Below, one piece after another: positions 49,361 to 54,102 of a stretch of DNA of 64,000 nt. The DNA lies in NCBI GenBank assembly GCA_020436225.1, contig JAGQYE010000016.1, positions 1 to 64,000 on the forward strand, in the 5' to 3' direction. The DNA comes from Bacteroidota bacterium. Lineage in GTDB: Bacteria > Bacteroidota > Bacteroidia > Chitinophagales > JADIYW01. How positions within the stretch are numbered: the first letter of the stretch is position 1; each line of letters opens with the position of its first letter. The notes beneath the pieces were generated by a model. The model searched no databases and was not told the origin of the DNA. It saw only the letters and a list, made by a program, of their open reading frames with translations. A program made the translations under genes and the position numbers.

Positions 49361-49410
49361 ATGTTTTCTAAAAAACTTTTTATCTTAACTATGAATTAAT
49401 ATTAAGATAG

Positions 49411-49441
49411 TTGCATTTTAAACAAATTCTATCTTAATTTG
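49411..49441 (+). promoter_or_regulatory. Promoter of the Phe/Tyr operon
   Basis: TTG (49411-49413), a 20-nt spacer and TTAATTTG (49434-49441; one mismatch to TAnnTTTG). Predicted start site is about 49448, just before the leader ORF's second ATG (49452), so the leader peptide would be almost leaderless. Confidence 0.45.
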
Positions 49442-49445
49442 CAAT

Positions 49446-49493
49446 ATGATAATGAACAATTTCTTTTACGGATATTATTTTTTTCGCGCATAA
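49446..49493 (+). CDS. Phe/Tyr-rich leader peptide of the pheA operon
   Basis: ATG 49446 (or 49452) to TAA 49491 encodes MIMNNFFYGYYFFRA, 15 residues with four Phe and three Tyr codons, almost contiguous. Such runs mark ribosome-stalling leader peptides of amino-acid attenuators. The stop codon is followed at once by alternative hairpins and a terminator ahead of pheA. The presence of both Phe and Tyr codons matches an operon that makes both. Confidence 0.8.
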   Translation: MIMNNFFYGYYFFRA

Positions 49494-49561
49494 GCGAGAC
49501 GAGTAATGCTGTAAAAAAATGTAAGTATAATGAGTCTCGAGTTAAATCGAGACTTTTTTTT
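49482..49561 (+). promoter_or_regulatory. Transcription attenuator of the Phe/Tyr operon
   Basis: Three mutually exclusive pairings are visible. 1:2, TTTCGC (49482-49487) with GCGAGA (49494-49499), folds across the leader stop. 2:3, CGAGAC (49495-49500) with GTCTCG (49534-49539), is the antiterminator. 3:4, AGTCTCGA (49533-49540) with TCGAGACT (49547-49554) plus an 11-T tract, is the terminator. A ribosome stalled at the FF/YY codons (49473-49484) would mask segment 1 and let 2:3 form; one reaching the stop would mask 1 and 2 so 3:4 terminates. Mechanism inferred from structure; not tested. Confidence 0.75.
49533..49561 (+). terminator. Leader terminator before pheA
   Basis: Perfect 8-bp stem AGTCTCGA-GTTAAA-TCGAGACT followed by T11, 18 nt before the pheA ATG (49579). 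Its only sensible role is inside the attenuator. Confidence 0.9.
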
Positions 49562-49578
49562 TGACTATAGTATAAAAT

Positions 49579-50421
49579 ATGAAACCAAACATTACTATTC
49601 AAGGATTTGAAGCTTCTTTCCACGAAATTGTTGCGTTACAGTTTTTTGGAAATGATATAAAAACTATAGAATGTAAAACATTTCCCAAATTGTTTGATGT
49701 CATGCATAAAAACAAAGCAGATTATGCAGTTTGTGCTATCGAAAATTCTATTGCAGGATCTATTTTACCCAATTATGCTCAACTTAGAAAATCAGATTTG
49801 AAAATTATTGGAGAAGTCTATCTAAGAATTGAAATGAATTTAATGGCATTGCCCAATCAAACAATAGAAGATATTACAGAAGTGCATTCACATCCAATTG
49901 CGTTGTTGCAATGTCAAAAATTATTCGAGAAATATCCAAGTATTCAATTGATTGAGTCGGCAGATACAGCTTTGAGTGCTAAAGAAATTAAAAATTATTC
50001 TATTAAACATAGAGCTGCCATTGCCAGTAAAAGAGCTGCCGAAATCTATGGATTAAATATTATTGCTGCAGATATTCATGATAATAAGAGAAATTTTACG
50101 CGTTTCCTGATTTTAACAAAACAACAAAATGAAGATCGCAAACCGGCAATAATCAATAAGTCTTCTTTGTCTTTTAGAACCAGCCACTTGCCGGGAAGTT
50201 TGGCAAAAGTATTAACTGTTATTGCCTCGCATAATATTAACCTTTCTAAAATTCAATCTTTGCCTGTTGTGGGCGAAGAGTGGCAATATTATATGTATGC
50301 TGATTTAGAATTTGACGAAGCGTCAACTTATTACAAAATGCTGGAAGAAGTTCAACCATACATTTCTGAATTAAAAATTTTAGGAGAATACCAACAAGGC
50401 GATAAAATAAATAAAGCATAA
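49579..50421 (+). CDS. pheA: Prephenate dehydratase (monofunctional)
   Basis: 280 residues; converts prephenate to phenylpyruvate for Phe synthesis. Prephenate-dehydratase domain (~1-180) with AIENSIAG (53-60), the SADTALSA segment and signature NFTRF (172-176); C-terminal ACT domain (~195-270; SLSFRTSHLPGSLAKVL and NLSKIQSLPVVGEEWQYYMYADLEF), the likely Phe-binding feedback site. No chorismate mutase domain is present; that activity is fused to the DAHP synthase at the operon end. Confidence 0.95.
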   Translation: MKPNITIQGFEASFHEIVALQFFGNDIKTIECKTFPKLFDVMHKNKADYAVCAIENSIAGSILPNYAQLRKSDLKIIGEVYLRIEMNLMALPNQTIEDITEVHSHPIALLQCQKLFEKYPSIQLIESADTALSAKEIKNYSIKHRAAIASKRAAEIYGLNIIAADIHDNKRNFTRFLILTKQQNEDRKPAIINKSSLSFRTSHLPGSLAKVLTVIASHNINLSKIQSLPVVGEEWQYYMYADLEFDEASTYYKMLEEVQPYISELKILGEYQQGDKINKA

Positions 50422-50442: not shown

Positions 50443-51609
50443 ATGATTATCGAACCTGCTAATAAATTACAACACATCAACGAATACTATTTTAGTGCAA
50501 AGTTGAAAGAAATTGCAAAACTGAAAGCTGCAGGCAAACCAATTATTAATTTAGGAATTGGTAATCCGGATCAAGCACCATCTGCACAAACCATTGATGC
50601 ATTAAAACAATCTGCAAATCAGCCACAAAATCACGGATATCAAAGTTATATCGGCATTCCGGCTTTACGCCAAGCTATGAGTAATTGGTATATAAATACT
50701 TATGATGTTGAACTTAATCCTGAAACAGAAATTTTGCCATTGTTAGGTTCTAAAGAAGGAATTTCTTTTATTTCCAACGCATTCTTAAATCCAGGCGATA
50801 AAGTGTTGGTGCCCAATCCGGGTTATCCAACATATACTTCGGCAACGTATTTAGCCGGTGCTACTCCAATTTATTACGATTTAGATGAACAAGAAAATTG
50901 GATTCCTGATTTATCTTCTATCGATGAAAAAACATTGGAAGAAGTAAAACTCATGTGGGTAAATTATCCGAATATGCCAACCGGGGCAAGCGGCAACAAT
51001 GAAGTTTTTAAAACATTAATTGAAATTGCACATACTTTTAAAATTCTTATTGTAAATGATAATCCGTATAGTTTAGTTTTGAATGAAGATAAACCGGTTT
51101 CCATTTTACAAACTGAAGGCGCAAAAGCGGTTTGTTTAGAATTAAATTCATTGAGTAAATCGCACAATCTTGCAGGCGCCAGAATTGGGTTAATAGCAGG
51201 AGCGCAAGAGTATATCCAAACCATTTTAAAAGTAAAAAGCAATGTCGATTCAGGTATGTATTTGCCGGTACAAGCAGCAGCTATTGCCGCTTTGAGCAAT
51301 GATGATACATGGCATCAAAACAGAAATCTTGAATATAAAAAAAGAAGAACGTTCGCTTATCAAATTATGGATGCATTGGAATGTCAATATACAACTAAGC
51401 AAATTGGTATGTTTTTATGGGCAAAAATTCCGGATAAATATAAACATGTAGAAGAACTGACAGAGAAAATTTTACATGAAGCTGATGTGTTTATTACGCC
51501 CGGATTTATTTTTGGTAGTAATGGCGAAAGATATATTCGTATTTCGTTGTGCAGTCCTGAAAATGATTTAAAAGAAGCGTTAGAACGAATTAAAAAAATC
51601 CAAGCATAA
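50443..51609 (+). CDS. Class I/II (aspartate/aromatic type) aminotransferase
   Basis: 388 residues of the fold-type I PLP family. Schiff-base lysine K239 in LNSLSKSHNLAGARIG, NPGYPTY (125-131), VNDNPYS (204-210) and a C-terminal RISLC motif with the carboxylate-binding Arg. The SKSHNLAGARIG segment and its location between pheA and tyrA imply transamination of phenylpyruvate and hydroxyphenylpyruvate (or prephenate). Separated from both neighbours by 16-21 nt. Confidence 0.88.
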   Translation: MIIEPANKLQHINEYYFSAKLKEIAKLKAAGKPIINLGIGNPDQAPSAQTIDALKQSANQPQNHGYQSYIGIPALRQAMSNWYINTYDVELNPETEILPLLGSKEGISFISNAFLNPGDKVLVPNPGYPTYTSATYLAGATPIYYDLDEQENWIPDLSSIDEKTLEEVKLMWVNYPNMPTGASGNNEVFKTLIEIAHTFKILIVNDNPYSLVLNEDKPVSILQTEGAKAVCLELNSLSKSHNLAGARIGLIAGAQEYIQTILKVKSNVDSGMYLPVQAAAIAALSNDDTWHQNRNLEYKKRRTFAYQIMDALECQYTTKQIGMFLWAKIPDKYKHVEELTEKILHEADVFITPGFIFGSNGERYIRISLCSPENDLKEALERIKKIQA

Positions 51610-51625
51610 ATTGAAATAATAAAAG

Positions 51626-52468
51626 ATGAAAGTTGCAATTTTTGGTATCGGTTTAATTGGAGGTTCAGCAGCAAAAGATTTGCGAACTGCAAATTTTTGT
51701 ACAGAAATTATTGGAGTAGGAAGGAGCGAAGCAAGCAACAACAAAGCATTAGAATTAGGTTTGGTTGATAGAATAGTTTCTAAAGAAATTGCTGTTCAAG
51801 AAGCCGACGTAATTATACTTACAGTTCCTGTTAATAGTTTAATTCAAGAATTAATTTTTGTTTTAGATAATATACAGTCACACCAAACTGTTACGGATAT
51901 GGGCTCAACCAAAGGTATTATCATTGATGCTATAAAAGAGCATCCAAACAGAAAACGCTACGTTGCTTCACATCCTATGGCAGGAACAGAAAATAGCGGG
52001 CCTTCAGCAGCTATTTCAAATTTGTTTAAAAATAAAATTTGCATCATCTGTGATAAAGAAAACAGCGATGCCGATGCGATAGCCAATGTTGAAGCGTTAT
52101 ACAATACGCTTGGAATGCGCATAAAATATATGGATGCACATCAACACGATATGCACGCCGCATATATTTCTCATATTTCTCACATCAGCTCGTTTGTGTT
52201 GGCAGCCACTGTTTTAGAAAAGGAAAAAGATGAAGCCGCTATTTTAGAAATGGCAGGTGGTGGTTTCGAAAGCACTGTACGTTTAGCCAAAAGTTCGCCG
52301 GAAATGTGGGCGCCAATTTTTCAACAAAACAAGAATTATTTACTCGAAGTGATGGATACGTATATCGAGAAAATGTATCACTTTAGAAATTTAATCAATA
52401 AAAATAAAGATGAAGAACTCTTACATTTTATGCAGGAAGCCAATGAAATCAGGAAAATATTAAAATAA
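51626..52468 (+). CDS. tyrA: Prephenate dehydrogenase
   Basis: 280 residues; NAD(P)-dependent oxidative decarboxylation of prephenate to 4-hydroxyphenylpyruvate for Tyr. Rossmann GIGLIGGS (7-14), TDMGSTKG, and the catalytic His H116 in SHPMAGTE. No fused chorismate mutase or ACT domain. Third gene of the operon. Confidence 0.95.
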   Translation: MKVAIFGIGLIGGSAAKDLRTANFCTEIIGVGRSEASNNKALELGLVDRIVSKEIAVQEADVIILTVPVNSLIQELIFVLDNIQSHQTVTDMGSTKGIIIDAIKEHPNRKRYVASHPMAGTENSGPSAAISNLFKNKICIICDKENSDADAIANVEALYNTLGMRIKYMDAHQHDMHAAYISHISHISSFVLAATVLEKEKDEAAILEMAGGGFESTVRLAKSSPEMWAPIFQQNKNYLLEVMDTYIEKMYHFRNLINKNKDEELLHFMQEANEIRKILK

Positions 52469-52519: not shown

Positions 52520-53611
52520 ATGAGTAATCTAAACATCGTACCTCTAAAAGATTGGGGTTTTAATTTCGAGCGACCGATAATAATTTCCGGTCCGTGTTCT
52601 TGCGAAACCGAAGAACAAATGTTGGAAACAGCACAACGTTTAGCAGATAAAGGTATTCACGTATTGCGTGCCGGAATCTGGAAACCACGTACGCGTCCGG
52701 GAATGTTTGAAGGTATTGGCAAAGAAGGTTTGGCTTGGTTAGTAAATGCTGCAAAACAAATCGGCAAACCAACCACTGTAGAAGTAGCAACAGCACAACA
52801 CGTAGAAGAAGCTTTAGAAGCGGGCATTGATATTTTATGGATTGGCGCACGTACAACAGTAAATCCATTTTCTGTGCAAGAAGTAGCTGATGCTTTGCGT
52901 GGAGTTGATATTCCTGTGTTGGTTAAAAATCCAATAAATCCGGATTTGCAACTTTGGTTAGGTAGTATGGAACGTTTAAATGCGGTTGGTATTACCAAAT
53001 TAGGTGCTATTCATCGTGGATTTTCTTCTTACGAAAAATCAAAATATAGAAATAAACCGATGTGGGAATTGCCTGTAGAGTTGAGAAGACTTTATCCTAA
53101 TATGCCGATTATCGTTGACCCTTCTCATATTTGTGGAGTAAGAGATTTAATTCCTTCTGTTTCTCAAAAAGCACTCGACTTAGATTTTGATGGTTTGATG
53201 ATTGAATCGCATCGCGATCCGGATAATGCTTGGAGTGATGCATCTCAACAAGTAACGCCGGAAAGATTAGGAGAAATCGTTTCTTCTTTAGTGGTTCGTA
53301 GCAGCAAATTAGATGATTATGCTGAAAATAAATTGGAAGCTTTGCGTGCGCAAATTGATAGAATTGACAACTATATGTTGGAAATTATGGGCGAACGAAT
53401 GGAGATTGCAAGAAAGATAGGTGAGTTTAAACGCGATAATGGAATTACCATTTTACAAACCAATAGATGGGACGAAATTATTCATGATAGAGTGAAAAAA
53501 GCAGCTAAAAAAGAGCTTACAGAAGACTTTGTTAAGGATTTAATGGAGGCAGTTCACCAAGAATCTATCCGTCATCAAACAAAAATTATGAACAATATTT
53601 TAGCTGAATAA
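52520..53611 (+). CDS. Bifunctional DAHP synthase - chorismate mutase
   Basis: 363 residues. N-terminal type-Ibeta (KDO8P-like) DAHP synthase (~1-265): SGPCSCE (23-29), LRAGIWKPRTRPG, GARTT, KNP and DPSHICG motifs. C-terminal AroQ chorismate mutase (~278-363), helical, with ALRAQIDRIDNYML...ERMEIARKIGEFK and a final HQESIRHQ. The order (synthase first, mutase last) is the one known from Porphyromonas-type enzymes, in which the mutase domain gives prephenate feedback inhibition of the synthase. It provides the mutase missing from PheA and TyrA. Confidence 0.94.
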   Translation: MSNLNIVPLKDWGFNFERPIIISGPCSCETEEQMLETAQRLADKGIHVLRAGIWKPRTRPGMFEGIGKEGLAWLVNAAKQIGKPTTVEVATAQHVEEALEAGIDILWIGARTTVNPFSVQEVADALRGVDIPVLVKNPINPDLQLWLGSMERLNAVGITKLGAIHRGFSSYEKSKYRNKPMWELPVELRRLYPNMPIIVDPSHICGVRDLIPSVSQKALDLDFDGLMIESHRDPDNAWSDASQQVTPERLGEIVSSLVVRSSKLDDYAENKLEALRAQIDRIDNYMLEIMGERMEIARKIGEFKRDNGITILQTNRWDEIIHDRVKKAAKKELTEDFVKDLMEAVHQESIRHQTKIMNNILAE

Positions 53612-53772: not shown

Positions 53773-53979
53773 ATGGACAAAGACAAAATGATTAAAGCGT
53801 ATTGCCTTAAAACAAAAGAAAAAAATGTACCTATGCACGATGCAGTAGTTTCAAAAACTGCAAGAGGTGGTTATATGGCATCAGGCAATGATGGCAAAGG
53901 AAATAAAATGGCTGCTATTTTAAGCGAAGCAAAAGCATTGCAAGCAATTAAAGATGGTGTAGCTAAGAAAGGTTTCTAA
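53773..53979 (+). CDS. Small conserved hypothetical protein
   Basis: 68 residues: MIKAYCLKTKEKNVPMHDAV... then an SKTARGGYMASGNDGKGNKMAAIL middle and a helical ALQAIKDGVAKKGF tail. The opening YCxKxKEKxxMxxxxxxxKxxRGxxMAxG resembles DUF5679-like zinc-ribbon proteins, but only one Cys remains, so metal binding is unlikely. Basic, no signal peptide. Good promoter and a strong terminator say it is expressed on its own. Function unknown. Confidence 0.7.
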   Translation: MDKDKMIKAYCLKTKEKNVPMHDAVVSKTARGGYMASGNDGKGNKMAAILSEAKALQAIKDGVAKKGF

Positions 53980-53996
53980 GCCGACATTTTAAAATT

Positions 53997-54037
53997 AAAA
54001 AAGGCTGTCTCTTAAATAATTTGAGACAGCCTTTTTT
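53997..54037. terminator. Bidirectional terminator, 15-bp stem
   Basis: AAAAAAGGCTGTCTC and GAGACAGCCTTTTTT flank an 11-nt loop between the convergent small gene and the D-aminoacylase gene. Confidence 0.92.
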
Positions 54038-54102
54038 GTTTCTTATAGAAAGAGCAACCTAATCAAGTGCTCTTTTATTTGATTAATAATTTGATTTAGC
54101 AA

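Follow-up and report, generated by a model that had tools for sequence, protein, structure and literature searches.

Upstream of pheA, in a 64,000-nt stretch of Bacteroidota contig JAGQYE010000016.1 (hereafter the window), we found what is very probably (about 92%) an attenuator of transcription that works through a translating ribosome, as pheL and trpL do, with a sensor that mixes Phe and Tyr codons, ahead of an operon of the order pheA-aminotransferase-tyrA-DAHP synthase/chorismate mutase (pheA-AT-tyrA-DAHPS/CM).

Architecture of the pheA leader and its operon

All features described here lie on the forward strand. By direct reading, the leader peptide ORF (MIMNNFFYGYYFFRA, 49446-49493) encodes M-I-M-N-N, the sensor block FFYGYYFF (49461-49484) and R-A before a stop codon, bearing out the 15 codons with four Phe and three Tyr that had been claimed from the letters by the sequence-only reading. 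As in other leader-peptide attenuators, the ORF is short and dense in codons for the amino acids that its operon makes, and its aromatic block is conserved class-wide, with Phe and Tyr interchangeable.

The RNA segments that follow can pair in alternative ways. Segment 2, the 5′ strand of the antiterminator (CGAGAC, 49495-49500), begins 10 nt past the last Phe codon and is identical to CGAGAC at 49548-49553 in segment 4; each is complementary to segment 3 (GTCTCG, 49534-49539), which is common to antiterminator and terminator, and the 2:3 and 3:4 pairings are therefore mutually exclusive, as that reading had proposed. The intrinsic terminator 3:4 (49533-49562) lies between the leader and the first gene, with arms AGTCTCGA (49533-49540) and TCGAGACT (49547-49554) and a tract of nine T (49554-49562), not the eleven originally counted. 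Segment 2 is also enclosed in a 1:2 hairpin (49464-49516), with an outer stem pairing TTTTACGG (49464-49471) with CTGTAAAA (49509-49516) and an inner stem pairing 49482-49487 with 49494-49499; the inner stem, which had been taken for the 1:2 pairing, is real and forms the tip of this longer hairpin. The 116-nt leader RNA folds at -35.2 kcal/mol (z = -4.85), which none of 200 shuffles equalled, and the minimum-energy fold consists of the long 1:2 hairpin, reaching from the sensor codons at 49464 to 49516, and the terminator.

The genes downstream are pheA, encoding prephenate dehydratase (49579-50421; PDT domain, Pfam PF00800, 5.7e-58, with a weak ACT domain), a class I/II aminotransferase (50443-51609; PF00155, 2.5e-61), tyrA, encoding prephenate dehydrogenase (51626-52468; NCBIfam NF006307, 357 bits against a cut-off of 295), and a DAHP synthase fused to a type II chorismate mutase (52520-53611; PF00793 and PF01817). 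The assembly (2.69 Mb in 141 contigs; G000, with the window on contig C75) was also used for the genome-level observations below. Beyond the DAHPS/CM gene there is a 68-aa ORF (53773-53979) with no Pfam or NCBIfam match, followed by a strong hairpin (53997-54037) and a T run; sub-threshold Rfam matches to Thr_leader and trpB at 53929-54041 were rejected, this being an ordinary terminator hairpin 3′ of the small ORF.

From this arrangement we infer the following course of events. Transcription would begin at the leader ATG or a few nucleotides away, and a ribosome would start on the 15-codon peptide immediately. When Phe- or Tyr-tRNA is scarce, the ribosome would stall within FFYGYYFF with its leading edge just short of segment 2, which would then be freed from the 1:2 hairpin and pair with segment 3 before segment 4 exists; with 2:3 formed, RNA polymerase would read through into pheA-AT-tyrA-DAHPS/CM. 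When both amino acids are ample, the ribosome would reach the stop codon and cover segment 2, and 3:4 with its T9 tract would terminate transcription. If the leader is not translated at all, the 1:2 hairpin would keep segment 2, making termination the default.

Conservation and covariation in Bacteroidia

We sampled pheA regions from the window's genus, family, order and class and, further afield, from elsewhere in the phylum, and scanned 350 nt upstream of pheA at 177 distinct loci, mostly from Bacteroidia, with the reverse strand and dinucleotide shuffles as controls. An ORF with at least seven Phe or Tyr (F/Y) in 12 codons was present at 68% of the 177 loci, the reverse strand giving 0.6% and the shuffles 0.8%. 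At a cut-off of five F/Y in 12 codons, a leader was present in 146 loci and absent in 32; roughly one fifth of the sampled pheA loci are without a recognisable leader. An intrinsic terminator follows 139 of the 146. The F/Y leader spans about 20 families (19 counted, plus four named loci); in one more family, leaders of the MKLTQTYFWFYP type contain Trp and fall short of the F/Y cut-off. No F/Y leader was found in 28 usable loci elsewhere in the phylum (L043-L072), nor upstream of pheA in several families within the class. Leader peptides in the genus include MNNTFFYGYYFFRT, MIKGYFYGYYFFRS, MNKFYFYGYYFFRN and MNQSFFYFYYYFHA, those of other family members MNSVFFYSYYFYL and MNGLFYYGFYFWTGISGAK, and that of Daejeonella lutea is MNINSTYYFAYFYYPQ. 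One locus labelled Pyrinomonadaceae (L031, JAIBCC010000015.1) has a pheA 64% identical to that of the window and a long F/Y leader (MNLTPNNKNFNTVNAFGFFFGYFGYYFKLPKRRF); it is either a misbinned Chitinophagales contig or a case of cross-phylum transfer.

The sequence-only reading had proposed that an F/Y-rich ORF and compensatory changes in 2:3 and 3:4 be sought in relatives. The ORF is conserved in the genus, in the family and in about 20 families of the class, and compensatory changes were found in the window's family for 3:4 and also for 1:2. For ten members of this family, RNAalifold predicted the 1:2 hairpin and the terminator with eight compensatory pairs; none of 500 shuffles matched either the covariation score of 1:2 and 3:4 or the count of doubly changed cells, and in this alignment the paired cells fell to half when the pairing partners were shifted by one base. 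All six genus members retain the 2:3 helix, and one pair in it shows a compensatory change that extends to segment 4; the compensatory set at locus L029 reads CGGGAC, GTCCCG and CGGGAC. Covariation of 2:3 was counted in genus members only, because MAFFT misaligned segment 2 beyond the genus, and at this depth it is thin, since 192 of 500 shuffles reach the same level and six sequences are too few. Elsewhere 2:3 was assessed by shuffles and by cross-locus pairing: the loci together contain 84 different pairing sequences for segment 3, and pairing within a locus exceeds pairing between loci.

Amino acids probably sensed by the leader

Mixed codons are the rule, with at least two Phe plus at least two Tyr in 132 of 135 leaders and means of 5.0 Phe and 3.5 Tyr per leader (n = 135). 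At aligned aromatic columns, 334 of 508 departures (66%) are swaps to the other of the two residues and 27 are changes to Trp; from random single-base changes we would expect a swap in about 1 in 6 to 8, by our own estimate from the genetic code. The content of the operon matches, as had been remarked from the letters, in that the operon makes both amino acids: among 108 loci with enough sequence, 81 have pheA followed by AT-tyrA-DAHPS/CM in that order. Because mixed codons are the rule and F and Y interchange, dual sensing is supported, and the codons, their exchange and the operon content together fit a dual Phe/Tyr sensor. When the loci were compared, operon content showed no clear relation to the F/Y/W composition of their leaders.

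It seems unlikely that only stalling at Phe codons matters and that the Tyr codons are bystanders, on the model of E. coli pheL, which senses Phe. None of the 135 leaders is without Phe, which is on average the more frequent residue, and two leaders (L037 and L042) have Phe without Tyr, yet two or more Tyr are present in nearly all the others, F and Y exchange at aligned positions, the last aromatic codon, which sets the spacing described below, is often Tyr, and tyrA belongs to the operon in most loci. The leaders of L037 and L042 are MNLSRFFGFSFFGTG and MNLSRFFGFFFFGTG, at loci where the downstream sequence is too short to judge the presence of tyrA.

Another reading, which we consider improbable, is of a sensor for all three aromatic amino acids, stalling at Phe, Tyr or Trp as would suit an operon whose DAHP synthase controls the supply of chorismate. 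Trp codons do occur in 35 of the 135 leaders (1.3% of residues), often within the aromatic block, and one group carries the MKLTQTYFWFYP-type leaders; against this, the window leader is without Trp, trpE in the same genome has a Trp leader of its own, and W frequency has no clear link to operon content. Three loci (L035, L155 and L158) have mixed Phe/Tyr/Trp leaders upstream of pheA (MKQTQTYFWYYPSPNTGG, MKLTQTYFWFYPASKREG) and are possibly pan-aromatic sensors in their own right.

Other leaders in the window genome were sought at named operons (trpE, hisG, ilvD, thrA and a leuA-like gene). The leader ahead of trpE (MTINKFWWWNSKRR, with WWW; G000:C110, locus L228:7072-7211) appears to be a second attenuator. 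It has a promoter element (TATATTTG) 4 nt before its ATG, an antiterminator CGGCGA/TCGCCG with CGGCGA 9 nt past the last Trp codon, and a terminator (AGCTCGC-GCGAGCT-T7) 60 nt before trpE. Upstream of hisG (G000:C110, L228, hisG at 1933) we found an ORF with three His codons (MRIIFFLASHFTHHSK) and no T-tract terminator, possibly a weak or different his leader. No convincing leader was found at ilvD, thrA or the leuA-like gene of this genome.

Antiterminator spacing and the predicted edge of a stalled ribosome

The antiterminator strand was sought at each locus as the complement of the 5′ arm of the terminator, without use of its expected position. Counted from the last aromatic codon, segment 2 starts at a median of 10 nt (quartiles 8 and 12; 135 leaders), and the start falls at 6-15 nt in 87% of leaders compared with 19% of shuffles, with a nominal P of about 3e-64 that overstates independence because the loci are related. 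The group medians lie within 6-15 nt in 19 of 23 groups, so the spacing signal is not due to a single clade. By comparison, the distance from segment 2 to the stop codon is loose (MAD of 10, against 2 for the distance to the last aromatic codon), with the strand starting before the end of the ORF in 108 of 135 leaders and after it in 27. In the E. coli pheL control, the antiterminator strand was located 8 nt past the last Phe codon.

When a ribosome waits on a codon with its A site empty, it shields about 10 nt on the far side of that codon, given the known toeprint position of +15 to +16. Because the observed spacing is close to this length, the antiterminator strand is predicted to begin just where a ribosome halted at the last aromatic codon would end. 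When the RNA left free by such a ribosome was folded with segment 4 not yet transcribed, 2:3 formed in all 135 leaders compared with 47% of shuffles, with a mean energy of -17.3 kcal/mol against -8.4 for the shuffles. Sequence and geometry alone thus give an exclusive antiterminator that would be masked by a ribosome past the sensor codons and free when it stalls on them. The protecting 1:2 hairpin is found in the window and its family, with compensatory changes, and most other lineages favour another fold: with no ribosome, 1:2 is favoured in 40 of 135 loci and 2:3 in 94, so that the default state without translation may differ between lineages. A further point against an attenuator is the 6-bp 2:3 helix, which has less stability than 3:4 and would have to prevail kinetically.

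The fixed distance between codons and antiterminator also bears on the simplest explanation, a constitutive or factor-controlled intergenic terminator next to a chance F/Y ORF. TTT and TAT codons are abundant in AT-rich DNA, and five F/Y in 12 codons occur in 17% of shuffles, yet the richer ORFs, with at least seven, arise by chance in less than 1% and are found in over two-thirds of loci; together with the fixed distance and the predominance of F/Y exchange, this makes coincidence extremely improbable.

Candidate promoter and predicted start of the leader

Upstream of the leader we noted a candidate -7 element (TTAATTTG, 49434-49441), with a single mismatch to the consensus TAnnTTTG, 4 nt before the ATG at 49446, and a candidate -33 TTG element (49411-49413), 20 nt upstream of the -7-like element and at a spacing similar to that in relatives. 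TAnnTTTG is the known Bacteroidota -7 element (PMC7366714). Exact copies lie upstream of 78 of the 135 leaders compared with 5 of 135 shuffled sequences, mostly at 4-10 nt from the ATG, with a second cluster at about 15-22 nt. In the phylum at large few mRNAs are leaderless (in B. thetaiotaomicron, 3.7% of 5′ UTRs are shorter than 10 nt, and in F. psychrophilum 5.5% are leaderless). Because TAnnTTTG sits at 4-10 nt from the ATG in many leaders, a near-leaderless start of the predicted transcript is plausible and recurrent. The earlier placing of the leader ATG almost at the predicted transcription start therefore agrees with a recurring pattern; to judge from homologues, translation could start just as well at the second in-frame ATG (49452).

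An inverted repeat (TTAAGATAG ... CTATCTTAA, 49402-49437) spans the -33/-7 region and could be an operator or a chance occurrence. Locus L028 retains part of it with both arms changed to match (AAAATAG/CTATTTT), and L026 and L027 are without it.

Leader-peptide attenuation requires a ribosome close behind RNA polymerase, and so the conservation and precise spacing of this attenuator in about 20 families are evidence, at the level of genomes, of transcription-translation coupling in Bacteroidia. Ribosomes of this class are reported to fail to recognise Shine-Dalgarno sequences (PMC9976891). On balance, we favour the view that these leaders form a Bacteroidia-wide class, absent from Rfam, of Shine-Dalgarno-free and often near-leaderless dual Phe/Tyr attenuators whose antiterminators lie at the ribosome edge, implying coupling. 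The frequent distance of 4-10 nt from promoter to ATG offers a concrete hypothesis for how ribosomes might load fast enough. The leader is also a ready candidate for an Rfam family and for a simple reporter of aromatic amino-acid starvation.

Comparison with known systems

If pheA were preceded by a T-box or a ligand-binding riboswitch, a structured leader with a terminator would be seen as well, but the window and the loci of 15 relatives contain no Rfam match to either and the conserved features are short-ORF codons and ribosome-scale spacing, with no aptamer, leaving this reading next to no probability. The Rfam scan of the window gave sub-threshold matches only; Phe_leader (RF01859) scored 28.1 bits (E = 0.27), below its gathering score of 55, and reached threshold in none of 15 Bacteroidota loci, with the E. 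coli control at 132.3 bits.

The 2021 transcriptome study of F. psychrophilum describes clues to leader-peptide attenuation upstream of amino-acid operons and, in the same section, a structured 5′ element ahead of pheA that is conserved among Flavobacteriaceae and has no Rfam match (PMC9723704). The description of such attenuation as sparse in Bacteroidota was therefore overstated, as the main text of that study already reported this kind of attenuator in the phylum. Its pheA element is probably the same as that of the window in another family; the main text gives no peptide, specificity or geometry for it (PMC9723704). What our sequence comparison would add is the mixed Phe/Tyr sensor and its spread over about 20 families, together with the spacing to the ribosome edge and the predicted near-leaderless start. 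A large attenuation survey by Lopatovskaya et al. (2010) may include Bacteroidetes cases.

Of the systems in other bacteria, E. coli pheL-pheA is much like the window in having a short aromatic leader peptide, the 1:2, 2:3 and 3:4 pairings and a terminator ahead of pheA, with the antiterminator strand starting 8 nt after the last Phe codon compared with 10 nt in the window. In contrast to the window, which mixes Phe and Tyr and has tyrA in the pheA operon, the pheL leader has Phe only and tyrA-aroF is a separate unit. The trp attenuator (trpL), like the trpE leader described here, has the same mechanism as proposed for the pheA leader, with Trp codons in place of Phe and Tyr. In enterobacteria, too, one leader can respond to several of the amino acids that its operon makes, as in thrL (Thr and Ile) and ilvL (branched-chain amino acids); the window leader resembles these as a multi-amino-acid leader and differs in that its pair is Phe and Tyr.
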